A stretch of DNA of 64,000 nt, taken from assembly GCA_907163225.1 (NCBI GenBank), contig OU015322.1:1775001-1839000 (forward strand), read 5' to 3'. This DNA is from an uncultured Rhodocyclaceae bacterium (GTDB lineage Bacteria > Pseudomonadota > Gammaproteobacteria > Burkholderiales > Rhodocyclaceae). This document shows, one piece after another, positions 4,034 through 63,578 of this stretch (position 1 is the stretch's first letter; each line of letters begins with the position of its first letter). A model generated the notes under the pieces. That model saw only the letters and a list, made by a program, of their open reading frames with translations. It was not told where the DNA came from and made no database searches. The position numbers and the translations under genes were made by a program.

Positions 4034-4064
4034 AATTTGGCGGATTTTCCAGTTGACCGCAGCA
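4034..4064 (+). repeat. Dispersed A-block repeat, intergenic copy
   Basis: AATTTGGCGGATTTTCC followed by AGTTGACCGCAGCA. It lies between the convergent ends of the MutT-ThiE gene and yacG. It differs from the family consensus at about three positions. Confidence 0.75.
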
Positions 4065-4110
4065 CCGGGCGCTATTTCCGTGGTCACCGAAGGCCACCGG
4101 ATGGCCGAAT

Positions 4111-4317
4111 TCAGCGTTGCGGCTGATCCGGAAAGTCGAGGCCGGGCGTACCGGCCTCGTCGTCACTGACCGCGCCGCCAATGCGATAGGCGTCACTGGC
4201 CCAGCAACCGAGGTCAATTTGTTTGCAACGTTCGGAACAGAACGGACGATGCGGATTTTCCGGTGCCCACAGCGCATCTTCGCCGCATTGCGGACAACGT
4301 ACCTTGCGCGCCGTCAT
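4111..4317 (-). CDS. yacG: DNA gyrase inhibitor YacG, zinc-ribbon protein
   Basis: A 68-aa zinc protein with the family pattern [10 protein letters not shown] and [21 protein letters not shown]. The two CxxC-type pairs bind one zinc. In E. coli the protein binds gyrase and blocks DNA binding. The start overlaps the zapD stop as TGATG, so translation is coupled. The acidic tail ([15 protein letters not shown]) is typical. It is the last gene of the minus-strand coaE-zapD-yacG cluster. Confidence 0.92.
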
Positions 4318-5075
4318 CAGAGATTGCAGAAGGTCAGGTCGAAGTCGACATCGCGCTCACAGCCGCGCGCCTTGATTTCACCCGCCGGCGGCTTGGTGAA
4401 TCGGATGTTCAGGAAATACTTGTTGGCGCTGACTTCAGGGATCGCCTGCTCGTCGGCACTGAGCGTGACGCGAACCATCTGCGCGGCGGAACCGCCCAGA
4501 TTGAGCTGGAACTGACCGTTGGTTGCCGTGTAGTTTTTTGGCCGGCCGCTGGAGCGCAACAGGCGCAAGACGATTGATGCCGCATCACGCAGGGGCAGCA
4601 TCGGCTTGGTCCAGCCGTCCAGGGCAGCACGTCGGACATCCGCCGGACGATGCAGCCACCAGTGGTAGGACGGCAGGTCGAATTCGCAGACGCCGCCAGG
4701 AATGGCCGCCCGGCTCTTGATGCCCATCAGCCAGTCGTTTTCACGCAGGTACTGGCCGATCTTGCCGGTCATGCCGAGTAGCGCAGCCGAGGACTGCTCG
4801 ATTTCGTAAAGTGCGCCGGACAGCGCCTCTTCGGAAATATCGGGGTTGTTGCGAAAGGCCAGCAGGGTTTGCCGCTGCCTTTCGAGCTCCTGGATCAGAT
4901 CCATCTTGAGGTCGGCACGACCGGCCACCTCAAGGATTTCGAACATGGAAACGAGTGCGGTATGGTGCTCAAGGGCACCGTCTTCCTGCGCGAAATACGC
5001 CGTTTTTTCGAACAGATCTTCGAGACGCAGCAATGTGCGGATGCGCTCGTTGAACGGGTATTCGTAAGTAATCAC
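4317..5075 (-). CDS. zapD: Cell division protein ZapD
   Basis: A 252-aa cytoplasmic protein of the ZapD (YacF) family, which crosslinks FtsZ filaments and stabilises the Z ring. It begins with the family sequence [19 protein letters not shown] and contains [16 protein letters not shown] and SYHWWLHRP. Length is normal for the family. It lies between coaE and yacG, the usual order, but the type IV prepilin peptidase gene that often precedes coaE is absent here. The C-terminus runs directly into yacG. Confidence 0.93.
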
Positions 5076-5135
5076 GCGGCGTGGGTCCGAAGAAACGGAA
5101 AATTTTGTTTATTCTGAGCTATTTGCAGGCAAATC

Positions 5136-6490: not shown

Positions 6491-6494
6491 GGCA

Positions 6495-7859: not shown

Positions 7860-7935
7860 TTTTCTCTCCCGGAAAGCGTTGGCTGAAAGGCGGTAACTTA
7901 CTCCAAATGGGCCGCCCAACCAAGAGTCCATCTTC

Positions 7936-7967
7936 ATTTTGGGCGTTTTTCCGGGTTGACCGCAGCA
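7936..7967 (+). repeat. Dispersed A-block repeat, intergenic copy
   Basis: ATTTTGGGCGTTTTTCC followed by GGGTTGACCGCAGCATTC, with one extra G. It lies in the 168-bp divergent region between trpB2 and the DOMON gene, where nothing else stands out. The last 16 bases recur exactly at 19176-19191. Confidence 0.8.
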
Positions 7968-8027: not shown

Positions 8028-8582
8028 TTGAACCGCCTGAATCACACGCCCCTGATCTGCCATCCGGCGACGCCCTGCACCGCTGTCGAGGCCATTGACA
8101 TCACGGTTGAACGCACCGCGGCAGGCGGCCTTGAACTGTGCTTTCGCGTACACGGCGCACCAGCGGCCATCCTTCTCCCGTCGCCGCAACCGTCCGGCCC
8201 GGCTGACCAGTTGTGGCAGCACACTTGCTGCGAAGCCTTTGTTTCCACGGTCAACCAGAAAAATTATCAGGAATTCAATTTTTCACCCTCCGGTCAGTGG
8301 GCAGCTTATCGCTTCACGGATTACCGCGAACGCGACACCAGTTTTTCGCCTGCATGCGCCCCCATCGTCGCCTTAGAGCTCCAGCCCAACGGCTTCCTCC
8401 TCAAAGCCGGGCTTGCCCCTGCGCTATTGCCCGCTGACCAGACGCTACAACTCGGCATCACCGCCGTCATCGAAGCTGCCGATGGCCGCAAGAGCTACTG
8501 GGCGCTACAACACAGCGCGCCGCAACCCGATTTTCATCTCCGCCCAAGCTTCACCCTGACCCTGAACCGCAACCCGCCATGA
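8028..8582 (+). CDS. DOMON-like domain protein
   Basis: A 184-aa protein resembling the DOMON-like beta-sandwich family found next to muramidase genes. Conserved elements are ADQLWQHTCCEAFV, the segment EFNFSPSGQWAAYRF, and KSYWALQHSAPQPDFHLRPSF near the end (split by variable residues in relatives). No signal peptide is seen. Its stop overlaps the start of the DUF1343/NamZ gene (ATGA), so the two act from one transcript. The fold suggests carbohydrate or haem binding; the partner gene favours a peptidoglycan sugar, which is inference. The stretch STVNQKNY is encoded by a degenerate A-block-like sequence. Confidence 0.78.
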   Translation: MNRLNHTPLICHPATPCTAVEAIDITVERTAAGGLELCFRVHGAPAAILLPSPQPSGPADQLWQHTCCEAFVSTVNQKNYQEFNFSPSGQWAAYRFTDYRERDTSFSPACAPIVALELQPNGFLLKAGLAPALLPADQTLQLGITAVIEAADGRKSYWALQHSAPQPDFHLRPSFTLTLNRNPP

Positions 8583-9903: not shown

Positions 9904-12900
9904 GTGCACGCTTGCATCCCTACGGCAGTCGATCTCTGGCTCTGTCGAGCCATGGCTACGTTCTGCCTGCTGCTTGGCCTTGCGCAGGCCAGCATGGCGG
10001 AATCGCAACCCGCCGCCCCGGAAACAACGATGGGTCGTACGGCCACAGAAACATCTGCTGGCCCTAGGACCACAGAAGCAACGGCTGGCCGTACGGTCAA
10101 CGGGAAAAAGGTCGCCAAATTCGCCGTTCTCGCCTTTCGCCCGCCGGCCGAAACGGCCGCACGCTGGCAACCGCTGATCGACTACCTCAACAATCAAAAT
10201 ATCGGCCAGCGGGTTGAACTCGTAGCCCTGAATCAAAAAGAGCTGGAAGCCGCCATCCGTGAAAAACGGGTGGATGTCGTGCTGACCCAGCCGGCCCACT
10301 ATATTTTGCTGACCCAACGCGAAGATCTGCTCTCGCCCCTCGCCACGCTGATCGAAAGACAGGGCGACAAGCCCTTGTCCAGCCTGGGCGGTGTCATTGC
10401 CACGCGGGCCGAACAGAAAGACATCCAGAATCTGTCCGACCTGCGTGGCAAACGCATCGCAACCAGCAACAAGGGCGAACTTGGCGGCTACATGGTGCAG
10501 GCCTATGAACTGAAACAACGGGGAGTTCACCTCCCGGACGAGGCAAAAATCGTCGAAACAGGCCCTAGCCAGGATCAGGCGATTGTCGAGTTGCTGGCCG
10601 GCAACGTCGATGCTGCCTTTGTGCGCACCGGCCTCATCGAGGCCATGGAAAAGGAAAAGAAACTGGACGTCCGGCGCCTGCGCATCATCAACGCCAAAGA
10701 CGACGGCTTTCCCCTACTGCATTCGACCCGACTCTATCCGCAATGGCCCATGGCTGCGATGCCCTGGGCCAACGAACACTTCGCCCGCCAGCTGGCCGCC
10801 GCGATACTGACCTTGCCGCACGGTGGCGAAACCGCCACGGCAGCCAACATTTACGGTTTCAGCATCCCCGCCGACTACCGCCCGGTCGAAGACATGTTGC
10901 GCCAGATGCGTCTGCCGCCATTCGACGCTGTCCCCAGCATCAGTTTTGGCGAAGTACTTGCGCAGTACGCCTGGCTGATCGCCCTTGTCGGCCTGCTGGT
11001 CTTCGGTGGCATCCTTTACGCCATCAGAACCCTGCTGAGCGCCAATCGGAGCCTCGAGGCCGAGCGCGCTCGTGCCAAGGTTACAATGGCTGAGCTGACA
11101 TCGACCGAAGCCCGTTTCCGGGCTATCTTCGAAAACGTCGATGCCCTGTCCATTCAAGGCTACCTGGCCGATGGCACCGTCGCCTACTGGAATCATGCCT
11201 CGCAAACGCTCTACGGCTACACCCCGGAAGAAGCACTCGGCAAATCACTGCTTGAACTGATCATCCCCCATGCCATGCACGACGGCGTGCGTAGCGCCGT
11301 GCAATGGATGTTCGAGCACAAGACCAGTATCCCGGCCGGTCGTATGACCCTGCGCCACAAAAATGGAAAACCGGTCGAGGTTTATTCCAGCCACGCGATT
11401 CTGGAAACGGCGGATCGCGGCCCGATGATGTTCTGCCTGGACATTGATCTGGCTGATCTGACCAGCGCCGAACGCGCGCTGATCGAGAGCGAAGCTCGCC
11501 AGCGCATGATATTTGAAACGCTGGGTGAGGGCATATTCGGCACAGACACCTACGGTGTCTGCAACTTCATGAACCCGGCCGGGCTGGCGCTGCTCGGCTA
11601 CGAAGAAGCCGAAGTGCTGGGCAAATACGCCCACGCGCTGTTCCATCATCACCGCCCTGACGGCTCGCCGTATCAAGCCACCGAATGTCCGCTTAACCTC
11701 ACGGCTCAGGATGGCAAGCTGCGCCGAACGGAAGAGGTGTTCTGGCGCAAGAATGGTACGGCCTTCCCGGTGCGCCTGACCGTTTCGCCCAATCGCCGCG
11801 ACGGTGTCGTCATCGGTGTCGTCGTCGCTTTTTCCGACATCAGCGAAAACCTTCACCACGCCAAAGAGCTCGAAGAAAGCCGCCAGAACCTTGAGGCGCA
11901 AGTGGAACAGCGCACCGAGCAACTCGAAATCGCCCGTCAGGCAGCCGAGGCGGCAAGCCGCTCGAAGAGCGCCTTCCTGGCCAACATGAGCCACGAAATC
12001 CGCACGCCGCTCAATGCCGTTCTGGGCATGGTCCACCTGCTGCGCCGGGACAACCCGACGATGGTTCAAGTCGACCGCCTCGACAAGATCGATAGCGCGT
12101 CACAGCATTTGCTCGCCGTCATCAATGACATTCTCGATATTTCCAAGATCGAAGCCGGCAAACTGCAACTTGATGAAACCAAGGTTGACATCAACATCAT
12201 CCTCAAGCGCGTCGTTTCCGTACTCGGCGAGCGTGCCCGCGAAAAAGGCCTGGAACTCCTGACCGAGTCTGATCCGTTCGAGCACTCACTGATCGGCGAC
12301 CCGACGCGGATCACACAATGCCTGATCAACTACACCGCCAACGCGATCAAATTCACCGATCAGGGCCGCGTCACCATCAGGGCGCGCAGCATTTCGGAGA
12401 ACATCAATGGCGTGCAACTCCGCTTCGAGGTCGAAGACACCGGAATTGGCATTGTCGAGGAATCCATCCCACGCCTGTTTGGCATTTTCGAGCAGGCCGA
12501 CAGCTCAACCAGCCGGAAGTTTGGTGGAACCGGCCTTGGCCTGGCCATCACCCGCCGCCTGGCCGAACTGATGGGCGGCCGCGTTGGGGTCACCAGTCGC
12601 CTCGGTGCCGGCAGCCGTTTCTGGTTTACGGCGCGCCTGAAACCCGGTGACGAAGCCATGGATGTACTGAGCTCCACCTTTGCCGGGATGACAATGCAGG
12701 CCGTGCATGACACGCTGGCCGGGCGCCACGTGCTGATCGTTGAGGACGAGCCAATCAACCGCGAAATCTCGCTGGAACTGCTCAGCGAATACGACATCAC
12801 TGCCGACACGGCAGAAAATGGGCGGCAGGCGCTCGAACTGCTCAAAACAAAAACCTACGATCTGGTCCTGATGGACATGCAGATGCCGGAAATGGATGGT

Positions 12901-13086: not shown

Positions 13087-14744
13087 CGACGAATTACCCG
13101 CTCGGCGGCCAGGACGCCACGATATTGCGCTTCTTCGAACAAGGAAAACCCGGACAAATCGGCATGCGCCAAGGTGATGCGCGGGCTTTCAAAATTGGCC
13201 AATTTTTCCCGTTGACCCTGGGGCCAGCCGTTGTTTCTATGGTCGTGGAAGATGCTGCCCGGCACCGGACGGCGCATGGCGTGACCGTTGCGGAAGATAT
13301 CGAGGCGCGTCGTCAGCTTGCGGATGTCTGGATGGGCTCGCTCCAGTTCGGAAAGAATCCCTTCGGCCCACGCTTCGCGCGGCATATCAAGCAATAATCG
13401 GCGCCCTTCGGCCGGGGTGACATCATGCAGCGCGCGATAATAGGTGAAAACCGTACCGCTCAGCCGGCGGCGAATCAATTGGTGCGTGGCTGTTACGTAG
13501 CCAAGGCCGGGGCTGTCATGGAACACGTTGTCCCACGCCGCCGGTGCGCCGTGCCGCTCTTCCGGCAGGTCGGAAAGATGCAGGTTGGCCGTCAGCCACG
13601 GCGCGTAATCGCCGGCCAGTGCCGCCGCTTTCAATTCGCCGGGCATGGCGGGCCAGACACGCGGCAAGACAAAAGCCGGGGCCGCCCAAATCAACTGCCT
13701 GGCTTCAAATCGAACCGTCTTTTCACCAACGAGGGCATCGACCGAAACACTGCCCCTCCCTTCCTCGATGCGCCAGACCATGGCGCCGGTAATGATTCTC
13801 TGACCAGCCTTTCGAGCCAGACCGCAGGCAAGCCAGGCATTGCCTTCGGGTGCAGTCAGCACCGTATCGCTCGCCGCATTGGCCGCCTCGCCGTTGCGGC
13901 AGGCAAAATAGTGTAGCCCCGCCCAAGCCGAAACCTGATCATGCGCCATGCCGTAATCGTCGCGACAAGCGTAGTTGGCCAGCCAGTGAAGCGTTGGCGC
14001 CGTGAAGCCGTTGTCGTTCAACCACTGCGCGAAGGAAATCCGGTCGAGTTCGCGCCACGCCCGGTCGCCGCTGGACAGCGCCATCGGGATAGCAAAGATG
14101 CGGCGGCCATCGCTGCCTTTGGCCTGCTTGAGTTCGTCCATCCGCAGCTGAAATAGCCGCTGCTGCTCGCGCTCGGCGGCATCGACGCCGCGATGGGGCA
14201 GCAAACCTTCCTCCCAAAGACCGTTGCGATAAACCCGCTCCTGCGGCGTGCCGCATAGATAGCGCTCGTCATAGATCGGCCGGGCAGCGCCCGGATCGCC
14301 GTGCAAGACGCCCAGTTCGGCCAGCAGCGCACGCACATGAACCGACTCCCGCGTCGGCAGCGGCAGGTAGTGCGCGCCCCAAGGGTAAGCAACCAGCGAC
14401 GATTGCCCGGCACGGGAGTTGCCACCGGCTTCGCTTTCCATTTCAAGCAACAAAAAGTCGTCGACCGCGCCCCGGAGGCGGCGGGGCCTTGGGCTCAAGT
14501 CCCCTTGTGGGGCAACACTCGCCAGTTTCCAAGCGGCCGACAGGCCGGAAATGCCACCGCCAACGATCAACACGCCTGTCTTGCGCGTTTCGCTGGGCGA
14601 CGGAAAGCCGCCGTCCCGCAAGCGATGGCCGAGCGCGTGATTCATGCCCAGCAATTCGCCGGGCGGCAGGGGATGTTTGGCGGGTGCGCATCCGGCCAGG
14701 GCGGCAGCCCCGACGATGCGCAGAAAATCCCGCCGGTCAGTCAA
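13071..14744 (-). CDS. Tat-exported FAD-dependent oxidoreductase (amine oxidase-like)
   Basis: A 557-aa flavoprotein. The TTG start at 14744 is chosen because it gives the twin-arginine signal DRRDFLRIVGAAALAGCAP with a lipobox-like LAGC; starting at the ATG at 14643 would lose it. The dinucleotide-binding fingerprint is VLIVGGGISGLSAAWKLA near residue 50. The C-terminal flavin region ITLAHADLSGFSLFEEAQYRG is conserved. The substrate is unknown. Relatives often sit beside membrane spermidine synthase, DUF350 and DUF4178 genes, which are elsewhere in this window. Residues about 499-518 are encoded by a long-form repeat (HDHRNNGWPQGQREKLANF). The start overlaps the ftsX stop. The end overlaps the convergent kinase gene by 16 bp. 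Confidence 0.82.
   Translation of the reverse strand: MTDRRDFLRIVGAAALAGCAPAKHPLPPGELLGMNHALGHRLRDGGFPSPSETRKTGVLIVGGGISGLSAAWKLASVAPQGDLSPRPRRLRGAVDDFLLLEMESEAGGNSRAGQSSLVAYPWGAHYLPLPTRESVHVRALLAELGVLHGDPGAARPIYDERYLCGTPQERVYRNGLWEEGLLPHRGVDAAEREQQRLFQLRMDELKQAKGSDGRRIFAIPMALSSGDRAWRELDRISFAQWLNDNGFTAPTLHWLANYACRDDYGMAHDQVSAWAGLHYFACRNGEAANAASDTVLTAPEGNAWLACGLARKAGQRIITGAMVWRIEEGRGSVSVDALVGEKTVRFEARQLIWAAPAFVLPRVWPAMPGELKAAALAGDYAPWLTANLHLSDLPEERHGAPAAWDNVFHDSPGLGYVTATHQLIRRRLSGTVFTYYRALHDVTPAEGRRLLLDMPREAWAEGILSELERAHPDIRKLTTRLDIFRNGHAMRRPVPGSIFHDHRNNGWPQGQREKLANFESPRITLAHADLSGFSLFEEAQYRGVLAAERVIRRYDAR
13191..13247 (+). repeat. Long-form dispersed repeat inside FAD oxidoreductase gene
   Basis: The A block (AAATTGGCCAATTTTTCCC then GTTGACC) is followed by a B block at 13222-13244 reading GGCCAGCCGTTG, then TTTCTATGGTC. 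The B block differs from the second kinase copy at two positions. It is read by the host gene in a different frame from the other two long copies. Confidence 0.8.
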
Positions 14745-21791: not shown

Positions 21792-21820
21792 AAAAACCCG
21801 CGAAATTCGCGGGTTTTTTG
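21792..21820. terminator. Bidirectional Rho-independent terminator after ferredoxin gene
   Basis: A perfect inverted repeat with arms around 21792-21804 and 21806-21818 (stem core ACCCGCGAA), flanked by A and T runs, so it can act on both strands. Confidence 0.9.
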
Positions 21821-21826
21821 TTTTCT

Positions 21827-21857
21827 ATTTTGGGCTGTTTTTCCGGTTGACCGCACC
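21827..21857 (+). repeat. Dispersed A-block repeat, intergenic copy
   Basis: ATTTTGGGCTGTTTTTCC followed by GGTTGACCGCACC, seven bases after the ferredoxin terminator. The remaining 110 bp before the dynamin-like gene show no clear feature. Confidence 0.8.
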
Positions 21858-21969
21858 CCGCAAGAATCCACAGCGACGCGCCTGCTTTGCCTCTTGCTAT
21901 GCAGGCGCTTCATCAGCACCCTTGGGCTGTGGGTGTCGATGTGCTTCCATGCATATGAAATCGATGCCA

Positions 21970-23985: not shown

Positions 23986-24819
23986 TTAATGCTGACAGCC
24001 AGTGCAGTAATAAGTACTGCGCCCCGCCTGTCGAATCTGCCGAACCACACCGCCGCAACGCAGACACGGCTCCCCGGCGCGATCATAAACGCCCGCCTGA
24101 ATCTGGAAACAGCCGGCGCCACCGTCGCTATGCACATAATCGCGAATACTGCTGCCACCGGCCGCAATGGCATCCGACAAGGTTTCGCGAATGGCCGGCA
24201 CAAGGATTTCGTAGCGCGCCCGGCTGATCCGGTTGGCCGCCCTCAGCGGCGAAATGCCCGCCCGAAACAAGCTCTCCGACGCATAAATATTGCCGATGCC
24301 AACGACCAGATGGCTGTCCATCAAGGTCGGCTTGATCGGCCCGCTTCGTCTTGAAATTGCCTGAAAAATCCAGTCGACCGTGAAAGCCGCCGACAGGGGC
24401 TCTATTCCCTGCGTAGCGAGCAAGGGATGCAATTCAGCCACCTCAGGCGGCCCGGGCTGCCAAAGCACGACGCCAAACCGGCGCGGATCGGCAAAGCGCA
24501 GGATATGCCTGGCCAGCACCAGCTCGAAGTGATCATGTTTCTCGACCGGCTGGTCATGTGGCACAAACCGCAGATTGCCCGACATGCCGAGGTGAATGAT
24601 CAGACAGCCCTCAACCCCCTCCCGCTGGCAATCAATCAACAAATACTTGGCGCGCCGCCGCACCGCGACGATGCGGCAGCCGGGCAGCAACTCGATCAAT
24701 TCGCGCGGAATCACCTGTCTCAACTTCGGTGCGCGGATTTTCACCGCCTCGATGACCGCCCCCTCCAGCTCCGGCGCCAACCCACGACGGCAGACTTCCA
24801 CCTCCGGCAATTCCGGCAT
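23986..24819 (-). CDS. mutM: Formamidopyrimidine-DNA glycosylase
   Basis: A 277-aa base-excision repair enzyme removing 8-oxoguanine and formamidopyrimidines. The catalytic N-terminal proline follows the start Met in PELPEVEVCRRGL, the lysine motif is RRRAKYLLID, and the zinc finger is CLRCGG...YYCTGC at the end. The ATG at 24819 has AGGAAC 5-6 bases upstream. Together with the MutT-ThiE protein it gives two parts of an 8-oxoguanine defence, unlinked here. Confidence 0.96.
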   Translation of the reverse strand: MPELPEVEVCRRGLAPELEGAVIEAVKIRAPKLRQVIPRELIELLPGCRIVAVRRRAKYLLIDCQREGVEGCLIIHLGMSGNLRFVPHDQPVEKHDHFELVLARHILRFADPRRFGVVLWQPGPPEVAELHPLLATQGIEPLSAAFTVDWIFQAISRRSGPIKPTLMDSHLVVGIGNIYASESLFRAGISPLRAANRISRARYEILVPAIRETLSDAIAAGGSSIRDYVHSDGGAGCFQIQAGVYDRAGEPCLRCGGVVRQIRQAGRSTYYCTGCQH

Positions 24820-27204: not shown

Positions 27205-28049
27205 GCGACTGGAACTGGGACAGCGCCTGGCCGGCCCCGGCCAAACTCAACCTTTTCCTGCATGTCGTCGGCCGCCGCGCCGACGGCTACCACCTGCTGC
27301 AAACCGTCTTCCGCTTCATCGACCGTGCCGACACCCTGCGCTTCGCCCCGCGCACCGACGCCCGGATCGTCCTCGCCACGCCCATACCCGGCGTTCCCGC
27401 CGACACCGACCTGACCGTACGCGCCGCCCGCCTGCTCCAGCAGGCCACCGGCTGCCGCCAGGGCGCAACGATCCAACTCGACAAGCAACTACCGATGGGC
27501 GGCGGCCTGGGTGGCGGCTCATCCGACGCCGCCACCGTACTGCTCGCCCTCAATCATTTGTGGCAAACCGGCCTTTCCCACGGTCAACTGGAAAAAATGG
27601 CCATTTCCCTGGGCGCCGACGTCCCGGTCTTCGTCCATGGCCGCAATACCTTCGCCGAAGGCGTCGGCGAAGCCTTTACCGATGTCGAACTGCCTGCCGA
27701 AAGCTATCTGGTCCTGCACCCACCGGCCCACGTGCCAACAGCGGCCATTTTCGGCGCCCCCGAACTGAAGCGTGACACCGCCCCCATGCATCCGGCCGAC
27801 TGGCGACACGGAGAAGGTCACAACGACCTCGAAACCGTCGCCTGCGCCAAATTCCCGGCGGTCGCCGAGCACCTGGCCTGGCTGAAAAGCCGCAGCCCCC
27901 ACGCCATGATGACCGGCTCCGGGGCCTGCGTGTTCGCCGGCTTTCCCCGACGCAGCGAAGCCGAAGCTGCGCTGGCAACGCTTCCGCCCGACATGGCGGG
28001 ATGGGTCGCCGACGGCCTGCCTGAACACCAGCTCGCAAAAATTCGCTGA
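27201..28049 (+). CDS. ispE: 4-diphosphocytidyl-2-C-methyl-D-erythritol kinase
   Basis: A 282-aa GHMP kinase of the non-mevalonate isoprenoid pathway. The N-terminal [20 protein letters not shown] and the ATP loop [15 protein letters not shown] are diagnostic, with [13 protein letters not shown] near the end. The GTG at 27201 overlaps the lolB stop. It precedes tRNA-Gln and prs, the classic betaproteobacterial order. Confidence 0.95.
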
Positions 28050-35021: not shown

Positions 35022-35093
35022 GGGCAGGAATGCTAACTCGAAATCGGGGGAACGGCTCGGCACCGCCACGGTCTCAACGCCAACAGCATTTCA

Positions 35094-35124
35094 ATTTTGG
35101 CCGCTTTTTCCAGTTGACCGCAGC
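35094..35124 (+). repeat. Dispersed A-block repeat upstream of yceI
   Basis: ATTTTGGCCGCTTTTTCC followed by AGTTGACCGCAGC, ending 36 bp before the yceI start codon in the divergent region with the spermidine-synthase-like gene. Confidence 0.8.
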
Positions 35125-35159
35125 CCTGCAAAAAGTCCCCTTGGGGGACAGGAATCACC

Positions 35160-39676: not shown

Positions 39677-39800
39677 CGCTTCATCGGCGGAGCCCCGCCA
39701 GCAGAAATTTGGCAGCTCAGCTTTGGCAGCGCGGCTCCGGGATGCAGATCAGTCCGCCAGGGTCTTGGTGCAGCAATTATCGCCAGCATTTCTGACGACC

Positions 39801-39831
39801 CTGCGGTCAACCGGAAAAACGACCAAAAATG
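39801..39831 (-). repeat. Dispersed A-block repeat, intergenic copy
   Basis: On the minus strand ATTTTTGGTCGTTTTTCC followed by GGTTGACCGCAG. It lies in the 230-bp region between the hicA-like gene and tRNA-Arg; the rest of that region holds only the tRNA terminator. Confidence 0.82.
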
Positions 39832-39870
39832 AATCTCACCTCTTACGCGGCGGATGCCCCGACAGCCCAC

Positions 39871-39906: not shown

Positions 39907-39983
39907 TGGTGCGCCCGGAGAGATTCGAACCCCCGACCCCTGCCTTCGGAGGGCAGTACTCTATCCAGCTGAGCTACGGGCGC
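39907..39983 (-). tRNA. tRNA-Arg (anticodon CCG)
   Basis: A 77-nt tRNA with acceptor GCGCCCG/CGGGCGC, D loop AGCTCAGCTGGATAGAG, anticodon stem CTGCC/GGCAG holding CCG, T loop GGTTCGAATCT, and an encoded CCA end. Confidence 0.96.
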
Positions 39984-43781: not shown

Positions 43782-45706
43782 CAGTCGTCTCCGTCCGCAT
43801 CGTCGCTGCTCACCGGCGCGTGGTCGCTTTCGGCCCAGCGCCGCGCCTCGAAAGCCGCATGGCGCATGGCGGTGAAGATCGGAAAGATGATCAGGAAAAT
43901 CATCACCAGCACGAAATTCGACCAGCCGGCGCTGGCTGTATGCACTTCGACGGTATCACGCACGGCGACCGGCTTGTCCGGGGCCATGTCAGGGTCGAGC
44001 GTCAGGTAGTAGGTACCGGCGGGGATATTCAGGAAAACCACCTCGTCCTCGCGGCTGCCTTCGGTCCAGGAGCCACCGTCGTAACCGCTGTAAAACGACA
44101 GTTCGCGAGCAGCGGGCCAGGCCGCTCCGGTCGCCTTGTTGACCAGCATCATGTCGAGGCCGATCCAGTTGTTGTCCAACGAAGTCTGGTTCCTGACGGC
44201 AATTTTGCTCGGATGGCCAGTGATCTCGAATTCACGGGTCTGGACTTCCTCACCACGTTGCGGCTCGAAGGTGAAATCCTGGCGCAGCAACAATCGGCCG
44301 CTCGAAAAGAGGGCAAAGAAAGCCTGCAAAAGAATGGCGGCCAGCGCCAGCTTCCAGAAAAGGCTCCAGATCCGCCGGTTTGTCTCGTTCCACGAATTCG
44401 GCTGGTTGGCGAATACCGCGGTCGGCTTCGGCAAATCGGCTTTGAGCCCGAAAGCCTCGGCGATCACCTGCGGCTCGACATAGCTGCCCTGCGACCAGCT
44501 CAGGTCGTTGCCCGTCGATTCGCTCGACAGCATGAGCGGCGGCGCCACGTAATCGACGACGCGATTGGTTTCCCCGCGCCATACCCGCCACGTGAACTCG
44601 CCGGCCACCTGAATAACCTCTGCCGCCTGCGTGGTCGCGAAATGCTTGAAAACCTGCCCGCCATGGCGAACGCTATCGACTTCGATGATGCCGCCAGCCG
44701 GCGGCTTGGAGAGCACATCGACGACATTCCAGTGACCGTTGTATTCGGTCAGCCAGCGATAGGTGCCATGCTCGGCGGCCAGCAGATATTCGCTCCAGTT
44801 GTAGGCAATGGCGTCGACCACACAGCGTTTGACAAGAAAGCCGATGACTTCGACCGGCTTGCCATCAAGCCGGCCCTTGCTGCCCAGCGGCAGGCGTGGT
44901 GAATACTTCTCATCGCGCATGCCGAGCGACTTTGACAGAATCCTGTAGCTCTCGTCGGCTGCATCGACCACCGCCCCACAGGAAGCGCAGCCCACCGCCA
45001 GAATTTCCTTGGAGCGCGCAGCCATTGGCGACCCGCAGCTCGGGCAGCGGAAAACGCGAGCCTCGACCGCCTTGGTCGGGATGGCCATGCCGTCGCGCAG
45101 GTTGGCCATTTTGAGCGAACTGAAATCGACAGCCTCGCCAACGAACAACAGCGGCGGCGTTTCCGAATAATCGAGCGTGGCGAAATTGGCCTGATTTCGC
45201 AGGTCGACCGCAGCAACCGGATAGCCGGCGCCGACCTTGAATGGCAGCTCGCCCTGGCCGGCGACGCACTCGGCCTTTTCGATGTTGCTGACCGTCCACG
45301 TCTGGCTGGCCAGCACGAAACGCTGGCCGATTTTCAGATCGTCGAGCTGCGGCAGCGCCTCACCAACAAACTGCGCGAATGTGAGCACATACTCACCTCC
45401 AGCCTCCGATAACCAGCCGGTTCGCATGTCGTCAAACAGCAGGTGCCACTCGTTCCAGATGCCCTGGCTGTACTTGATCTGGATGCGCCCAATCAGCGCG
45501 AAATGCACGCCCTTGTAGCTACCCTCGGAACCCAGCTGCAGCGGCGAACGATCCTCGACGAGCGCCGCCATCTTGCCGATGTCTTCGAGATTCTGGTCGT
45601 GGCGAACCAGCGTGCTCTGGCAGTATTCACAGACGGCAAAGACCGAGGACGCCGATTTGAAGACAACCGGCGCCCCGCAGGAAGGGCAGTGGGCGCTTAC
45701 AGCCAC
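43781..45706 (-). CDS. DUF4178 domain protein with zinc ribbons
   Basis: A 641-aa protein. Two zinc-ribbon/DUF4178 modules are seen: an N-terminal one with CPSCGAPVVF and CEYCQS, then a DUF4178 domain (LQLGSEGSYKGVHFALIGRI); a second with CPSCGSPM and CASCGAVVD, then LPLGSKGRLDGKPVEVIGFL. Two membrane helices lie near residues 465-485 (LALAAILLQAFFALF) and 605-625 (FVLVMIFLIIFPIF), enclosing a periplasmic beta domain. Function is unknown. The GTG start is 10 bp after the SPFH stop; the gap is an A-block fragment and there is no normal ribosome site. Confidence 0.85.
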   Translation of the reverse strand: MAVSAHCPSCGAPVVFKSASSVFAVCEYCQSTLVRHDQNLEDIGKMAALVEDRSPLQLGSEGSYKGVHFALIGRIQIKYSQGIWNEWHLLFDDMRTGWLSEAGGEYVLTFAQFVGEALPQLDDLKIGQRFVLASQTWTVSNIEKAECVAGQGELPFKVGAGYPVAAVDLRNQANFATLDYSETPPLLFVGEAVDFSSLKMANLRDGMAIPTKAVEARVFRCPSCGSPMAARSKEILAVGCASCGAVVDAADESYRILSKSLGMRDEKYSPRLPLGSKGRLDGKPVEVIGFLVKRCVVDAIAYNWSEYLLAAEHGTYRWLTEYNGHWNVVDVLSKPPAGGIIEVDSVRHGGQVFKHFATTQAAEVIQVAGEFTWRVWRGETNRVVDYVAPPLMLSSESTGNDLSWSQGSYVEPQVIAEAFGLKADLPKPTAVFANQPNSWNETNRRIWSLFWKLALAAILLQAFFALFSSGRLLLRQDFTFEPQRGEEVQTREFEITGHPSKIAVRNQTSLDNNWIGLDMMLVNKATGAAWPAARELSFYSGYDGGSWTEGSREDEVVFLNIPAGTYYLTLDPDMAPDKPVAVRDTVEVHTASAGWSNFVLVMIFLIIFPIFTAMRHAAFEARRWAESDHAPVSSDDADGDD

Positions 45707-47925: not shown

Positions 47926-48737
47926 GCGGAGCTTCCCCCAGGCGCGCTGGCGACTCGGCGCAGGCTGACGTCGCCGGAAAAAATGCGTTCGACCCCGGCA
48001 GCGGTTTCGAGGAGCAGCGCGCCATCGTCATCGATGCCAAGGCAACGCCCGGATTTCGGTGCATCACCTTCGCCGAGGATCTGGACGGCCTGATCCTGCC
48101 AGGCGTGATACGACTGCCATTTCAATTTCAGGCCAAATTTCCGGTTCACCGTGAAAGTGTCGAGAACCTCGGCCAGTTGGCCGAGAATGGCCGCCAGCAC
48201 ATCGTGGCGATCGGCCCGGCCGACGCCTGCCTGCCTCAAACCGGCCGCCGGCTGCGGCAGGTCACCGGTCGGCGGCAACAGGTTGAGGCCGATGCCGATG
48301 ATGGCCTGGGTGCCGCGACGGTCGGATGACAGCTCGATCAGGATGCCGGCCAGCTTGGCAAAATCGTCGCCGGTGCGCAGCAGCACATCGTTCGGCCATT
48401 TGAGGCACACGCCGTTGGCGCCAAGACTTTCCATGGCCTGGGCCAGCGCAACGCCAACCGCCAGCGACAGCCCGCTCAGGCTCGCCGCGTTGCCGGGAAA
48501 GCGCCAGAGCAGAGAGAACGTCAGGCTGGATTCGGGCGATGACAGCCAGCTGCGCCCTCGTCGCCCGCGCCCGGCGCTCTGCCGATCGGCGACGATAACC
48601 GTGCCGGATGGCGCGCCGCGTTCGGCCCGGCGCATCACTTCGCTGTTGGTCGAATCGCATTCGTCCAGCGCGTCGACGTCAAAACGACCGGCCAGGACGG
48701 CCAGTCGCGCTTTCAGCAGGACAGGATCGATCAACAT
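47922..48737 (-). CDS. birA: Biotin-protein ligase BirA, no DNA-binding domain
   Basis: A 271-aa ligase that attaches biotin to biotin carboxyl carrier protein. It has DECDSTNSEVMRR, the biotinyl-AMP loop SAGRGRRGRSW, and CLKWPNDVLL. The N-terminal helix-turn-helix of E. coli BirA is absent, so it should not repress the bio operon. A degenerate A-block-like sequence (48124-48154) lies in the coding strand for FTVNRKFGLKLKW. Confidence 0.93.
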   Translation of the reverse strand: MLIDPVLLKARLAVLAGRFDVDALDECDSTNSEVMRRAERGAPSGTVIVADRQSAGRGRRGRSWLSSPESSLTFSLLWRFPGNAASLSGLSLAVGVALAQAMESLGANGVCLKWPNDVLLRTGDDFAKLAGILIELSSDRRGTQAIIGIGLNLLPPTGDLPQPAAGLRQAGVGRADRHDVLAAILGQLAEVLDTFTVNRKFGLKLKWQSYHAWQDQAVQILGEGDAPKSGRCLGIDDDGALLLETAAGVERIFSGDVSLRRVASAPGGSSA

Positions 48738-52475: not shown

Positions 52476-55400
52476 GTGAGCCAGCGTTTCAATCTTTCCG
52501 ACTGGACCCTGCACCACCGGACGCTGGTCGGCTATTTTCTGCTCGCTGTCGCGCTGATGGGCATCATCGCCTTCGGCAAGCTGGGCCAGGCCGAAGACCC
52601 GCCGTTCACCTTCAAGATCATGGTCATCCGCAGCTTTTGGCCGGGCGCGACCGCGCTCCAGGTCGAGCAGCAGCTGACTGACAAGATCGAGAAGAAGCTG
52701 CAGGAAACCTCTTACATCGACCGCGTTTCCAGTTTTTCGCGGGCCGGCGAATCGACTGTTTTGTTCTTCGCCAAGGACAGTACGCCGCCCAATGCGGTAC
52801 CGGACGTTTTCTACCAGGTGCGCAAGAAAATCGGGGATATCCGGCACACCCTGCCAGCCGGCATCCAGGGCCCTTTTTTCAATGACGAATACGGTGACGT
52901 TTTTGGCAATATTTTCGCGTTGACCGCAGAAGGCTTCGATTATCCGCAGCTGAAGGATCAGGCCGAGCGTATTCGCGACGAACTGCTGCGTATCCCGAAT
53001 GTGGGCAAGGTGGAAATTTTCGGCATCCAGGACGAGAAGATTTTCATCGAACTATCAAACGCCAAGCTGGCGACGCTGGGTATCGACCAGACAAGCATCG
53101 TTCAGGCGCTGAACCAGCAGAATGCGGTAGCCGGTACCGGCTTTTTCGAGACGCAAAGCGAGCGCATCCAGATCCGCCCCGGCGGGGCTTTCAATAATCC
53201 GCAGGCGGTCGCCGACACCCTGATACGCGCCGGGAATCGCAGCTTCCGGCTCGGCGATATCGCCCGTGTTCATCGCGGCACCATCGACCCGCCGGCCACG
53301 CAAGTCCGCTTTGGCGGAAAGCCGGCGCTGGCAATCGGCGTTGGCATGACCAAGGGTGGCGACATCATTCAGCTCGGCAAGGATCTGACCAACCGCGTTG
53401 CCAAGTTGCAGGCAGCCCTGCCGGTTGGCGTCAACATCGGCGTTGCGGCCAGCCAGCCGGAAGCCGTCGAACGCTCGGTCCAGGCTTTCACCCACGCCCT
53501 GGCCGAGGCCGTGCTGGTCGTTCTGCTGGTCACCTTCATCAGCCTCGGCATCCGCACCGGCATGGTCGTCGCGATCTCCATTCCACTCGTTCTGGCCGCC
53601 ACTTTCCTGGCCATGAACCTGTTTAACGTCGGCCTGCACAAGGTGTCGCTCGGCGCCCTGGTTCTGGCGCTGGGCCTGCTGGTCGACGACGCGATCATTG
53701 CCGTTGAAATGATGTGGGTAAAGATGGAGCAAGGCTGGGAACGCACCCGCGCCGCCTCGTTTGCCTACACCAGCACGGCCGGCCCCATGCTCTCCGGAAC
53801 CTTGGTGACCGTCGCCGGCTTCATTCCGATTGCGCTGGCCAAGTCATCCACCGGCGAATACGCCTTCGCTTTCTTCCAGATCAATGCCGTCGCCCTGCTC
53901 ATCTCCTGGCTGGCCGCCGTTGTTGCCATTCCCTGGCTGGGTTACAAGCTGCTGCCCGACCCGCGCGCCGCGCGCCAGACCAGCCGCCTCGAGCAACGGC
54001 TGCCGCGCCTCGCCCGGTTAGCCGACAAGCTTGGCCTGAACGGCCCGGCCCACGCCGAAGATCACGACGTCTACGGCACCCCGTTCTACAGCCGCTTTCG
54101 GCAACTGGTCAGTTGGTGTGTTGGCCGGCGCTGGCTGGTCATTGGCGTAACCGTCGGCCTCTTCGCACTCTCCATCGTCGGCATGGCCAAAGTCCAGAAA
54201 CAGTTTTTCCCGAACTCGACCCGCCTCGAACTCAACGTGGAACTGCGCCTGCCGGAGGGTGCGTCGATTGCCGCCATCAATGCCGAGACGCAACGACTGG
54301 AAGTCTGGCTGGACAAGGACAAGGCCGAATTCGATCAGTTCGAGCATTACATCGCCTACGTCGGCTCCGGATCGCCGCGCTACTACCTCGGACTCGACCA
54401 GCAACTGGGCTCAAGCAACGTCAGCCAGCTCGTTATCGTCACGCGCAACGTTGAGGCACGCGAAGCCTTGCGCGGTCGACTGATAAAACTGTTCGAAAAC
54501 GATACCTTCGCCGCCCGCGCCAACATCGCCCGCATTGAAAACGGCCCGCCGGTCGGTTACCCGGTGCAATACCGAATTTCCGGCGAAGACCCCGGCACGC
54601 TGCGCAAGGCAGCTGGCCAGATCGCCACCGTCATGCGCCAGGACCCGGCGCTATCGAACATCAATGTCGACTGGAGCGAGCTATCGAAATCGGTCGAGAT
54701 CGAAATCGACCAGGACAAGGCCCGGCTGCTCGGCATTTCCAGTCAGGATATCGCCGCGCTACTCAACATGTCCCTGAACGGCTATACAGTCACCAGCTAT
54801 CGTGAAGGCCAGAAGAGCATTGACGTGGTCTTGCGCGGCGACCGCGAGGAGCGTAGCCACCTGTCGTCCCTGGCCGATCTTTCGGTACCGACCCGTGCCG
54901 GCAAAAGCGTTCCATTGAGCCAGATCGGCCGCCTCAAACACACTTTCGAACCCGGCCTGATCTGGCGGCGCGACCGTCTGCCCACCATCACGGTACGCGG
55001 CAACCTGTACGGCAAGATTCAACCCGCCACGGTCGTCGACCGCATCAAGCCCGAAATTGACGCCATTCAGGCAAGCCAGCCCGAAGGCTATCTCATTGCC
55101 ACCGGCGGCGCAGTCGAGGAATCATCCAAAGGCTCCGGCTCGGTCATGGCCGGCATCCCGCTTTTTGTACTGGCCGTGGTGACGATTCTCATGATCCAGT
55201 TGCAGAGCGTTTCCCGCGTCATCATGGTGCTATTGACCGCGCCGCTCGGCATCATCGGCATCGCGCTTTTCCTGCTGATATTCCAGCAACCTTTCGGCTT
55301 CATGGCCCTGCTCGGCACCATCGCCCTGTTCGGCATGATCATGCGCAACTCGGTGATTCTCGTCGATCAGATCGAGCAGGACATGGCGACCGGCAAGCCG

Positions 55401-59467: not shown

Positions 59468-59507
59468 TTTCGCCTTAAACCCGCTTTGCCAAAACCACGG
59501 CGAGCCT

Positions 59508-59537
59508 CACGGTCAACCGGAAAAAGCGGCCAAATTC
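59508..59537 (-). repeat. Dispersed A-block repeat upstream of nadA
   Basis: Minus strand AATTTGGCCGCTTTTTCC followed by GGTTGACCGTG. It ends 11 bases before the nadA ATG, so it replaces most of the leader and the ribosome-site region. Confidence 0.82.
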
Positions 59538-59547
59538 AGAGAACAGC

Positions 59548-60645: not shown

Positions 60646-60733
60646 AATAACAGCGCCAAGGCGACAAATTGCGCGGAAACTGGCAGCAATTACAAAGGAA
60701 CGTGATTTATCTGACAAGTCCGGTCGCTCAACT

Positions 60734-60764
60734 TTGACGCTGATAGCATGACAATGTCTATAAT
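60734..60764 (+). promoter_or_regulatory. Possible sigma-70 promoter upstream of pelA-like gene
   Basis: TTGACG (60734-60739) and TATAAT (60759-60764) lie 19 bp apart, 28 bp before the GTG start of the pelA-like gene. The hexamers are good, but the spacer is two bases longer than ideal. Confidence 0.45.
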
Positions 60765-60791
60765 TCGGGCTTTTAAAGCACGTACCCCAAA

Positions 60792-63578
60792 GTGGCATTG
60801 CAGCGCCTGTTTTTCCTTCTTGTCGGACTTGCGCTCTCGCCCCTGGTTTTTGCCGAACCAGCCGTTGCGTTGTATTACGGAAAATCAACACCGTTAACAG
60901 AGTTCAGGACGTTTGATATCGTCGTGGTCGACCCTGATCATAGCCATGATCCGGAACGCTACCGCCGCCCCTACAGCCAGCTCTACGCCTACGCCGCCGT
61001 CGCCGAAGCACACCCCGGCCGCGCCTATTTCCAGAAAATCCCTGAAGCCTGGAAAATCGCCAAAAACAGCGACTGGGGATCGGTCGTCATTGACCAGAGC
61101 CCGCCTGACTGGGCTGCTTTTTTTGCCGACCAGGTTATCGGCCCACTCTGGGCCAAGGGTTATCGCGGATTTTTTCTCGACACCCTCGACTCCTACCGAC
61201 TCGCCGCAAAATTCGACGAACAGGCGCAGCAACAAGGCCTGATCCGCGTCATTGAGACGCTGCACCGGCGATTCCCCGGCATCAAGCTCATCCTCAACCG
61301 CGGTTTCGAGATCGTCCCCAGCGTTCGCGACAAGATCCAGATGGTGGCGGCCGAATCACTGTATCGCGGCTGGAATGCCGGCTCAGCTCGCTACGAGGAG
61401 GTTCCTGCGGCAAACCGCGAATGGCTGCTGGGTCAGTTGAAGACTATTCAGCAGCGCGATGGACTGCCCATTCTCGCCATTGACTACCTACCCCCGCACG
61501 ACCGAGCCACTGCCCGCGCCACGGCCGACAAGATCCGCCAGCTCGGTTTTATTCCGTGGGTCTCCGATCAGGCACTGGGCACCATGGGAATCGGCTCGAT
61601 CGAATCGGTGCCGCGCCGGATTCTCATTCTCCACAACGGTGCCGAGGCAGCCTCCGTCAAATTCAGCGCCCCCCATCGCTATCTTGAAATGCCCTTGAAT
61701 CACATGGGCTATGTCGTCGACTACGCCGATATCCAGAGCGACATCCCCGCCGATATCCACGCTGATCGCTACGCCGGCATCGTCACCTGGTTTTCTGGTG
61801 GGGTTCAGGAAATTCACGCCAGGAAACTAACCGGCTGGCTCCGAACGAAGCGTGATGAGGGGATGCCGGTTGCGATCTTCAGCGACTTCGGCCACTCACT
61901 GGAACGAGAAGCAACCCGGAGCCTGGGCTTGACGCCCGTAGCGCCGGCGGTCGGCAAAATCAGCATCGAAAACCAGCATGCCATGATTGGCCTGGAAGCC
62001 CAGCCAAGAGCGGCGCGCAGCGACTTGCTGGCGATTCGCAGCACAGGCCCGTCCGACCAGCCGCTGCTCAGTCTGCGCGACAGCAAAGGCAACATCTACA
62101 CCGGCGCCGCCATCACCGCCTGGGGTGGCTTCGTGCTTGACCCATTCGCCATCGCCAAGATTCCCGGCAGCGACCGCGTGCGCTGGGTGGTCGATCCCTT
62201 TGCCTTCCTGACCGCCGCCCTTCGCCTGGCACCCATTCCGGCGCCCGATGTCACCACCGAAAATGGCCGCAGGCTTTTCTTCTCGCACATTGACGGTGAC
62301 GGCTTTCCGTCTTTCGCCGAGCTGCCCGGACGCCCGCTGGCCGCCGAAGTACTTTACCGGGAGGTGCTGCAGAGGCACCGGGTGCCGACCACGGTCTCCG
62401 TCATCGAATCCGAAGTATCCCCGGATGGACTTCACCCAACGCTGAGCCCGCGCATGGAGCGCGTCGCCCGCCAAATGTTCGCACTGCCGCACGTAGAAAT
62501 AGCCAGTCACTCCTACTCACACCCATTCAAGTGGCACAGCGTCAAGCACGGCATTTTTGCCAATGCCGACGAGGCGCACTACCACCTCGAGATCCCCGGC
62601 TACACGATGAATCTTGATCGTGAAATCGTCGGCTCAATCGACTACATTCGCCGCCGCCTCACCCCGCCCGGCAAGGCGGCCAATATTCTTCTCTGGTCCG
62701 GCGACACCAGTCCGGGCCCGGATGCGTTGGGCATTGCCGAGAAGGCCGGACTACTCAACATGAACGGTGGCGACACCTACATTTCCCGTCGCCACCCCTC
62801 GCTGACCGCCGTCGGGTCGTTCGGCATCCGCACCGGCGACCTGCTCCAGGTCTACGCCCCGATCACCAACGAGAACATCTACACCAACCTCTGGCGCGGC
62901 CCGTTCTACGGCTACGAGGAAGTCATCGAAACCTTCGAAATGACCAATCGCCCGCGCCGCCTGAAGCCGGTCGACATTTACTACCACACCTATTCGGCCA
63001 GCAAGGTAGCTGGCCTGAACGCACTGCACAAAGCCTTCGCCTGGGCGGAAACCCAGTCCCTGCACCCGGTTTTCGCCTCTGACTACATCCACAAGGTTCA
63101 CGATTTCTACACCCTTGCCATCGCCCGCGACGGTGATGGCTGGCGCGTTCGCGGTGATGGCAATCTGCGCACCCTGCGCCTGCCCGCGGCCATGCGCCCG
63201 AATATCGATTCGGCCCAGGCTGTCGCCGGTTTCAGCCAGGGCAGCGAAGGCGAGTACCTGCATCTGGCAAACCAGGCAGCGTGGTTCGCCACCGGCAATG
63301 CACCCGCCGCCAATCGCCGGCCCTATCTGGTTGATGCCAACGGCCGCCTGAGCGACTGGCAACGCCAGGAAAAGGATTTCAAATTTCTCCTGAATTTCCG
63401 GTTGACCGCACACGCCGCGCTCGACTTCCGCCTGGCCAATCTCGACGGCTGCCAGACCCGGATCAACGGCAAGCTGACCAACCCGGGCCGCCCTGCCATC
63501 GTCGCCGGCCACGCAACCACCCGCTTCAAGCTCAACGATGCTGCTGCAACGATCGAAATTAGCTGCGCAGCGCACTGA
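60792..63578 (+). CDS. pelA: PelA-like exopolysaccharide hydrolase/deacetylase
   Basis: A 928-aa exported protein. The signal peptide is RLFFLLVGLALSPLVFA. Residues about 25-270 form a GH114-like endo-alpha-1,4-polygalactosaminidase domain (ALYYGKSTPLTEFRTFDIVV to IPWVSDQALGTMGIG). A linking domain leads to a polysaccharide deacetylase (about 490-790) with the metal Asp in FFSHIDGDGFPS and His pair in EIASHSYSHPF. This matches the PelA layout, where both activities process Pel. The GTG start at 60792 gives the signal peptide. The C-terminal FKFLLNFRLTAHA is encoded by a degenerate A-block. A pelB-like gene overlaps the end. Confidence 0.88.
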   Translation: MALQRLFFLLVGLALSPLVFAEPAVALYYGKSTPLTEFRTFDIVVVDPDHSHDPERYRRPYSQLYAYAAVAEAHPGRAYFQKIPEAWKIAKNSDWGSVVIDQSPPDWAAFFADQVIGPLWAKGYRGFFLDTLDSYRLAAKFDEQAQQQGLIRVIETLHRRFPGIKLILNRGFEIVPSVRDKIQMVAAESLYRGWNAGSARYEEVPAANREWLLGQLKTIQQRDGLPILAIDYLPPHDRATARATADKIRQLGFIPWVSDQALGTMGIGSIESVPRRILILHNGAEAASVKFSAPHRYLEMPLNHMGYVVDYADIQSDIPADIHADRYAGIVTWFSGGVQEIHARKLTGWLRTKRDEGMPVAIFSDFGHSLEREATRSLGLTPVAPAVGKISIENQHAMIGLEAQPRAARSDLLAIRSTGPSDQPLLSLRDSKGNIYTGAAITAWGGFVLDPFAIAKIPGSDRVRWVVDPFAFLTAALRLAPIPAPDVTTENGRRLFFSHIDGDGFPSFAELPGRPLAAEVLYREVLQRHRVPTTVSVIESEVSPDGLHPTLSPRMERVARQMFALPHVEIASHSYSHPFKWHSVKHGIFANADEAHYHLEIPGYTMNLDREIVGSIDYIRRRLTPPGKAANILLWSGDTSPGPDALGIAEKAGLLNMNGGDTYISRRHPSLTAVGSFGIRTGDLLQVYAPITNENIYTNLWRGPFYGYEEVIETFEMTNRPRRLKPVDIYYHTYSASKVAGLNALHKAFAWAETQSLHPVFASDYIHKVHDFYTLAIARDGDGWRVRGDGNLRTLRLPAAMRPNIDSAQAVAGFSQGSEGEYLHLANQAAWFATGNAPAANRRPYLVDANGRLSDWQRQEKDFKFLLNFRLTAHAALDFRLANLDGCQTRINGKLTNPGRPAIVAGHATTRFKLNDAAATIEISCAAH
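63381..63411 (+). repeat. Degenerate A-block repeat inside the pelA-like gene
   Basis: AAATTTCTCCTGAATTTCC followed by GGTTGACCGCAC. The 3' half is intact; the 5' half is diverged. It is translated in frame as KFLLNFRLTA. Confidence 0.55.

Follow-up and report, generated by a model that had tools for sequence, protein, structure and literature searches.

We studied a stretch of 64,000 nucleotides ("the window"), i.e., positions 1,775,001-1,839,000 of the single contig (3,463,890 bases) of an uncultured Rhodocyclaceae bacterium (genome G000), for a dispersed short sequence element, the A block. Its copies lie within genes as well as in the gaps between them, and three of them are extended by a second motif, the B unit, to a long form (Table 1; genes were called with a home-made caller based on codon usage). 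With a position weight matrix (PWM) of 39 columns, trained on 111 sites of the source genome with the window copies among them, we find 21 A blocks of at least 16 bits in the window and 0 in its reversed sequence. Judging from sequence comparison, we consider it likely that the A block serves the genus Azonexus (in the GTDB sense, with Dechloromonas-labelled genomes included) as a DNA uptake sequence. It shows the copy number, the use of both strands, the strong consensus, the origin in place, the dialects that follow phylogeny and the rarity in acquired DNA that characterize this class.

All 16 places named by the original prediction are A-block copies (18.8-52.8 bits each), to which the PWM adds those at 2590(-), 3380(-), 24347(+), 27576(-) and 54468(-). 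The prediction was also right that all three long forms carry an A block, but the form it placed at 10036 is on the minus strand, with its A block at 10089-10127. Its pattern was too short: the element spans about 38 bp and includes a third, weak T tract.

Table 1. A blocks and B units in the window with PWM score and gene context
Feature	Position	Strand	Score and context
A block	2590..2628	-	25.1 bits; inside called gene 2200-3072 (opposite strand)
A block	3380..3418	-	32.9 bits; inside gene 3069-4013 (Nudix family hydrolase)
A block	4026..4064	+	44.3 bits; convergent intergenic gap
A block	7929..7967	+	43.5 bits; divergent intergenic gap
A block	8243..8281	-	36.8 bits; in called gene 8028-8582
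Two tandem B units (27-nt period)	10041..10090	-	joined to 3' end of A block 10089
A block of long form	10089..10127	-	26.9 bits; in hybrid sensor kinase gene 9952-13086
A block of long form	13185..13223	+	44.3 bits; in called gene 13071-14744 (-)
B unit	13222..13244	+	joined to A block 13185
A block	21820..21858	+	45.6 bits; convergent intergenic gap
A block	24347..24385	+	23.8 bits; in weakly called gene 23986-24819 (-)
A block	27576..27614	-	33.4 bits; inside ispE-like gene 27186-28049
A block of long form	33595..33633	+	35.3 bits; in polyamine aminopropyltransferase gene 33468-35021 (-); relatives' alignments gapped
B unit	33632..33654	+	joined to A block 33595
A block	35087..35125	+	49.3 bits; divergent intergenic gap
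A block	39004..39042	+	45.1 bits; in phosphatidylglycerophosphatase A-like gene 38857-39342
A block	39799..39837	-	41.8 bits; gap between same-strand genes, also holding tRNA 39910-39983
A block	41547..41585	-	52.8 bits; near start of succinate-semialdehyde dehydrogenase gene 41525-42979
Weak A block	45177..45215	+	18.8 bits; in called gene 43781-45706 (-)
A block	48118..48156	+	36.0 bits; in called gene 47922-48737 (-); kept in G002, G003, G012
A block	52893..52931	+	37.7 bits; in RND transporter gene 52476-55622
Weak A block	54468..54506	-	19.9 bits; in RND transporter gene 52476-55622
A block	59505..59543	-	40.7 bits; gap between same-strand genes
A block	63375..63413	+	40.2 bits; in called gene 60924-63578

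The logo of 111 aligned sites shows a conserved stretch from -19 to +18 (~38 bp), with at most 0.2 bits outside. On the plus strand, the consensus reads ATTT.AATTTTGGCC.TTTTTTCCgGTTGACCGYAGcA, where the core is GTYGACCG (logo core GTTGACCG). The two main T tracts have their midpoints about 10 and 21 bp from that of the core, i.e., one and two helical turns away, and both lie on the same side of the core, such that they follow it when the element is read in reverse. The core is quasi-palindromic in its extended form CGGTYRACCG and fully palindromic in GTCGACCG dialects. Its centre GTYRAC is the recognition sequence of HindII/HincII, and GTCGAC is that of SalI.

Next, we evaluated whether the family exceeds chance. 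The core GTTGACCGC occurs 11 times in the window compared to 0.96 expected, a number reached by 0/100 shuffles; the original chance estimate of 0.5 should be about 1. The 18-base pattern TTTTCCNGTTGACCGNAG (up to 3 mismatches) is found 17 times vs. 0.48 expected, again with 0/100 shuffles as high. Genome-wide, TTTCCNGTTGACCGNAG (up to 2 mismatches) has 342 + 336 matches by strand while the reversed pattern has 3 + 3, in agreement with the several hundred copies per chromosome predicted beforehand. For distribution statistics we used a 464-kb sample of G000 (20 stretches of 20 kb across the genome plus the window; 13% of the genome), which includes the PWM training sites and the window, itself chosen for its copies. 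This sample holds 146 places with at least 16 bits and 0 when the same sequence is read backwards. We arrive at about 680-730 A blocks per genome, equally on both strands.

As predicted, both orientations occur without strand polarity. The plus:minus ratio is 74:72 among the 146 sampled sites and 12809:12769 when summed over 40 motif-rich congeners, and strands are balanced in all four chromosome quarters (chi-square, p 0.90). A polar signal linked to replication or repair (Chi, KOPS or Ter-like) would explain the high copy number, but the balance genome-wide (342:336) and per quarter refutes a polar role and leaves this explanation hardly conceivable.

The predicted dispersal over genes and gaps is seen as well, with 87 genic and 59 intergenic sites in the sample. 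The latter fall in 11% of the bases, i.e., intergenic density is 5.2x the genic one, and density is highest in convergent gaps (15 copies in 8.4 kb). This last observation is what a transcription signal, i.e., a terminator, promoter or RNA element, has in its favor. We nevertheless regard such a role as highly improbable: 87/146 copies are genic, with 36 on the coding and 51 on the opposite strand (p 0.13), tandem-gap copies are split into 17 on the same and 15 on the opposite strand, close inverted pairs are not seen, and an Rfam scan of the window has no match at A-block copies, its only matches being two tRNAs. Within genes, there is a strong preference for reading frame, namely phase 0 for 29/36 same-strand copies and phase 2 for 33/51 opposite-strand copies. 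Furthermore, copies are spaced more evenly than random. The coefficient of variation of gaps is 0.635 vs. 1.01 in simulations that preserve the genic/intergenic preference, and gaps below 500 bp make up 4.8% vs. 19%; 0/2000 simulations are as even or as low, respectively. Even spacing of uptake words is argued both ways in print (PMC1939737).

Orthologues were compared to study how copies arise. For the DNA alignments, congener orthologues were fetched regardless of motif. At several coding sites, congeners have non-motif sequence of equal length in place of the motif. That is, the copy at 41547 is present in G002, G012 and G003, while in G005 the same 39 positions align gap-free (79% identity) with the motif absent; none of the other orthologues aligned there has the full motif, and their gaps are small and mostly balanced. 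Likewise, the motif of 39004 is absent from G005 in a gap-free alignment. On the protein level, we applied a gap test modelled on that of Redfield and colleagues (PMC1626085). For 13 of the 87 coding copies, 0/72 alignments have a gap of at least 8 residues, and gaps of 1-3 residues occur in 4/72, all of copy 33595; these 72 rows are not independent, some genomes enter twice and some subjects retain the motif. Coding copies thus replace aligned sequence with few or no gaps, i.e., they are not insertions and arise in place. Two copies deviate from this picture: alignments of the long-form copy 33595 carry 55-82 gapped bases that start inside the motif, and a copy in a short gap between genes (L048 19753) is missing as a 32-base block in another species (L054), which looks like gain or loss of the element as a whole. 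In the comparison to which L048 and L054 belong, loci L131-L159 carry no label.

The original guess of a miniature repeat does not agree with these alignments. A mobile element of MITE (miniature inverted-repeat transposable element), REP (repetitive extragenic palindrome) or BIME-like (bacterial interspersed mosaic element) type that spreads by copying could account for hundreds of copies, their intergenic enrichment, the missing 32-base block and a B unit that behaves as an added segment. It is very unlikely given that no alignment of the 13 coding copies shows a long gap, that several sites align gap-free to motif-less sequence, and that conservation ends at the borders of the 38 bp with no transposon-like anatomy. 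For the coding copies tested, an insertion origin is ruled out by the DNA and protein gap tests. The checks suggested with the original prediction, i.e., a profile scan with shuffled controls and a comparison of orthologues, place the family above chance and show copies arising in place in genes. Neither of the outcomes named in advance as speaking against it, chance frequency or coding conservation in distant genera, was observed, and the genomes sampled from other genera of the family are at background.

We also compared the protein segments covered by the motif with 69 control segments of the same genes (666 alignments). Amino-acid identity is 0.62 in motif segments vs. 0.79 in controls. 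This agrees with the description of Neisseriaceae DNA uptake sequences (DUS), which sit in more permissive regions and whose new copies differ by more than single point mutations (PMC2397512). Regarding consensus strength, among 98 sites selected by their tracts alone, the core is perfect in 64, has one mismatch in 20, two in 1 and four to eight in 13. Such a surplus of perfect copies over those with one mismatch is called a puzzling attribute of DUS and of the uptake signal sequences (USS) of Pasteurellaceae, unlike sites of ordinary regulators (PMC1626085).

Both observations bear on an alternative in which the A block is the binding site of a genus-specific intracellular protein that organizes or condenses the chromosome, e.g., a dimeric nucleoid protein in need of evenly spaced sites. 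Here, sites would arise by point mutation and selection, and dialects would follow the protein. Even spacing, both strands, in-place origin and the quasi-palindromic core fit such a protein, as does the motif's retention in three genomes with interrupted comEC (see below). The surplus of perfect cores does not resemble ordinary binding sites (PMC1626085), genic copies coincide with lower protein identity than control segments, and 28/76 congeners have few copies, one of them (G035) sitting within the motif-rich clade of G000; for a structural site, this is odd. We consider this alternative unlikely.

Next, we studied the spread of the A block. An exact 19-mer of it is found in at least 109 stretches of the species-genome collection. 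Among the matches listed, 79/80 are titled Azonexus, Dechloromonas, Azonexaceae, Rhodocyclaceae or unresolved Beta-/Gamma-/Proteobacteria metagenome-assembled genomes, and 1 is Nitratireductor. Contigs of Dechloromonas sp. Dech2017 carry the motif, and the window presumably belongs to the GTDB genus Azonexus. The word is carried by JAHJVE01 and JAGTRT01 (L060, L061 and others), titled Gammaproteobacteria/Proteobacteria, which may be mislabelled relatives of Azonexus. With a pattern that covers the dialects (AAWTT-N15-GTYGACCG, up to 1 mismatch), 76 Azonexus genomes show a two-humped distribution: 40 have 310-1000 copies, 8 have 100-152 and 28 have 23-94, while the reversed control never exceeds 16. 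In 118 genomes from other genera of the family, we find 0-44 matches to this pattern, and in a sample of 297 family genomes, none outside the genus has more than 4 matches to a stricter pattern. Among the sampled genomes, the A block is abundant in one genus alone, namely Azonexus/Dechloromonas.

Within the genus, the core varies by dialect, i.e., GTTGACCGYAG in G000, GTTGACCGTGG in G002, GTCGACCGCAG in G030, G121 and G008, GTCGACCGcG in G030 and G032, and cacgGTCGACCGTG in G206. Unsupervised k-mer counts return words of the same family with altered letters, namely GTTGACCGTGG in G002, GTCGACCGCAGC and GTTGACCGCAGC in G030, GTCGACCGC in G032 and G024, and CGGTCGACCGTG in G206; no A-block-like word leads the k-mer lists of G171, G035 and G018. 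Logos grown on core seeds alone recover a tract of AATT type in G000, G002, G030, G032 and G206, with a weak one in G024; it precedes the core by about 20 bases, to within one base. Flanking letters for G352, G008, G121 and G346 were obtained from logos requiring the AAWTT tract, such that the tract is an independent result only in the core-seeded logos; dialect logos outside G000 rest on 100-140 kb per genome. G171 retains a residue, with 107 loose matches and, in 140 kb, 8 PWM hits. Stretches of G206 and G032 (L255-L259, L245-L249 and others) hold further words in strong repetition, GGAAGCCCCGGA and ACAACGACGGCT, respectively, which are unrelated to the A block and probably stem from local arrays.

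Motif classes follow phylogeny. On a comEC tree of 26 rows (G034, G002, G018 and G006 left out; partial rows for G005, G259, G019, G035 and G008), motif class requires 6 changes vs. 10.9 when shuffled (0/200 as low). Single labels are weaker; for the T dialect alone, 35/500 shuffles are as low. Motif-poor genomes take four places in the tree, three of them forced by well-supported branches, and motif-poor G035 lies inside the motif-rich clade of G000 (placed by its partial row). The simplest reading of these placements is repeated loss; repeated gain is a less simple alternative.

If the A block is indeed an uptake sequence, Azonexus cells would take up free DNA via type IV pili, where a receptor on the uptake machinery would bind the GTYGACCG core and the phased A/T tracts one and two turns away might help the DNA to bend or open for entry. 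Word-bearing fragments would enter preferentially and then recombine, and such biased uptake would over time turn chance near-matches into the word (molecular drive). Copies would accumulate in place, evenly and on both strands, wherever coding constraint permits; dialects would drift as receptor and word co-evolve, and copies would decay once the preference is lost. The pilus-borne receptor, the uptake preference and the drive are what we infer from the pattern of copies.

Several observations, including the two deviating copies described above, weigh against an uptake sequence. First, the quasi-palindromic core would suit a dimeric cytoplasmic protein. Second, close inverted pairs, called frequent but not defining for USS/DUS genomes (PMC12616744), are lacking, with 1 overlapping pair among 125 gaps of the 464-kb sample, and A blocks are less dense, at 0.2-0.3 per kb, than the ~1 per kb stated for USS/DUS. 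Third, the integrity of comEC does not separate motif-rich from motif-poor genomes. comEC is open in G000 and above the family cut-off in 28/30 genomes searched. Among 19 motif-rich genomes, 15 have an open comEC and three an interrupted one (G002, G259, G008), while in G019 contig ends cut the gene. Among 9 motif-poor genomes, 5 have it open; G018 and G035 have it interrupted (the latter by an apparent frameshift), and in G006 and G028 it is again cut by contig ends. Of the two intermediate genomes, G005 has it interrupted and G171 open. Hence, comEC marks nothing, and with comEC as the competence gene searched, competence loss finds no support as the cause of motif loss.

The same holds for pilins. 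The ComP_DUS family (PF16732) is found in 30/30 Azonexus genomes, motif-poor ones included, and in 56/61 genomes of a family sample (59 of the 61 from other genera). Being this widespread, it gives no evidence of a specific receptor. In addition, G000, G003 and G012 share one dialect, yet their best PF16732 pilins are of different types (in this comparison, G002 returned a neighbouring pilin and G017 none). As receptor candidates we searched PF16732 and one FimT-like pilin, and neither follows the distribution of the motif. Finally, no report of transformation in Azonexus/Dechloromonas was found among the best matches of the literature searched. Because comEC, ComP_DUS, pilin types, missing inverted pairs and the quasi-palindrome do not fit, we hold our confidence in an uptake sequence at likely and no higher.

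Separately, we observe hypervariability within the genus for a minor pilin operon (L299; G000:C1:1087519 on; PilE-like, FimT-like, PilV-like). Of 29 congeners searched for FimT, 25 have a best match of only 27-47% identity (many partial), and 4 have none.

Several congeners have comEC in pieces that are 20-50 kb apart (G002:C33:109264-144789, G259:C22:222682-273036, G005:C9:207483-249923, G018:C8:1064725-1114638). The gene looks like an insertion hotspot, and an insertion would switch off transformation. In G002 and G259, the two interrupted genomes covered by the count, the interrupting elements measure 34 kb and 49 kb (GC 0.52) and hold 2 A blocks in 83 kb compared to 11 in 76 kb of flanks (p 0.010), i.e., the motif is rare in these two foreign elements. 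Based on Pfam, a large serine recombinase is encoded by one element together with a Type ISP restriction enzyme, whereas TniQ/TnsD, TniB and a Mu-type transposase are found in the other; outside comEC, they have only short stretches in common. Viral spread of the A block was rejected since only 2 stretches of the viral collection carry the exact 19-mer; this is weak evidence, as Azonexus phages are possibly few in that collection. The two viral contigs (L310, L311) are either label-mimicking phages or host flanks of proviruses.

The long form adds the 27-nt B unit. In the G000 sample (up to 2 mismatches), 12/12 genuine B places (13 units, one tandem pair) directly follow an A-block core, and the unit is joined 4 nt after GACC at all of them. 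The remaining match, at window 7448, is without core and looks like chance. For two sites, one in L032 and one in L037, the corresponding A block in the other species compared has no B unit. With 44 copies in G000, the unit is patchy in the genus: any match is found in 29/76 genomes, some by chance, with tandem runs of up to 4. It looks like a precise insertion or expansion beside the A block and may be either a parasite or an extension of it.

If true, an uptake sequence in Azonexus would be a third unrelated case, now in environmental bacteria, implying that self-specific uptake evolves repeatedly. It would provide an independent replicate for the question whether uptake words are selected labels for mate recognition or by-products of molecular drive. 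The 40 motif-rich, 8 intermediate and 28 motif-poor genomes with their dialects suit this question as well as finding the receptor by co-variation. The A block might further serve as a handle for natural transformation of Azonexus/Dechloromonas isolates.

Finally, we compared the A block with known systems. In line with the original prediction, which knew of no named family with this sequence, we found none: for Rhodocyclales, the open-licence literature (mostly titles and abstract openings of best matches) yielded no account of an uptake sequence, and the letters of the motif lead only to unrelated subjects, as judged by title. The initial guess of a protein-binding site is compatible with the data, while a self-DNA uptake sequence is better supported and more specific. 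REP/BIME and MITE elements are likewise dispersed in hundreds of copies and enriched between genes, but they are inserted or intergenic whereas the A block arises in place inside genes. Chi and KOPS (FtsK orienting polar sequences) are short, frequent and chromosome-wide; they are strand-polar, which the A block is not.

Self-specific DNA uptake is stated as known only in Neisseriaceae and Pasteurellaceae (PMC12616744). Like the A block, the Neisseriaceae DUS (GCCGTCTGAA and dialects; receptor ComP) is a lineage-limited motif with dialects that some genera are without; its copies are lacking in genes of recent acquisition and most frequent where the sequence is permissive (PMC3630211; PMC2397512). 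It differs in being ~10-13 contiguous bases long without A/T tracts, and GCCGTCTGAA has 1 copy in 464 kb vs. 1.1 expected; only the canonical word and its 12-mer were counted, and the k-mer list holds no DUS-like word. ComP_DUS pilins are present in Azonexus but do not track the motif. The Pasteurellaceae USS (Hin AAGTGCGGT, Apl ACAAGCGGT) shares with the A block hundreds of copies, no strand bias, a strong consensus, an origin by substitution rather than insertion and dialects by subclade (PMC1626085; PMC12616744). When read as CTGCGGTCAACCGGAAAAA..GGCCAAAATT, the A block also has A/T tracts 3' of its core, about one helical turn apart. The words themselves are different: AAGTGCGGT and ACAAGCGGT have 1 copy each in 464 kb vs. 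3.6 expected each, and the USS inner core GCGG is kept only in CAG- and CGN-type dialects of the A block, the GTGG dialect having ACGG. Moreover, the A block is less dense, without close inverted pairs and in another class of Proteobacteria. By anatomy and behaviour, it works like an uptake sequence; with its own word, it belongs to neither the USS nor the DUS family of words. It seems fairly likely that Rhodocyclaceae are a third group that independently evolved self-DNA uptake, with a word of its own, phased A/T tracts, dialects, repeated loss and a USS-like design reached by convergence.

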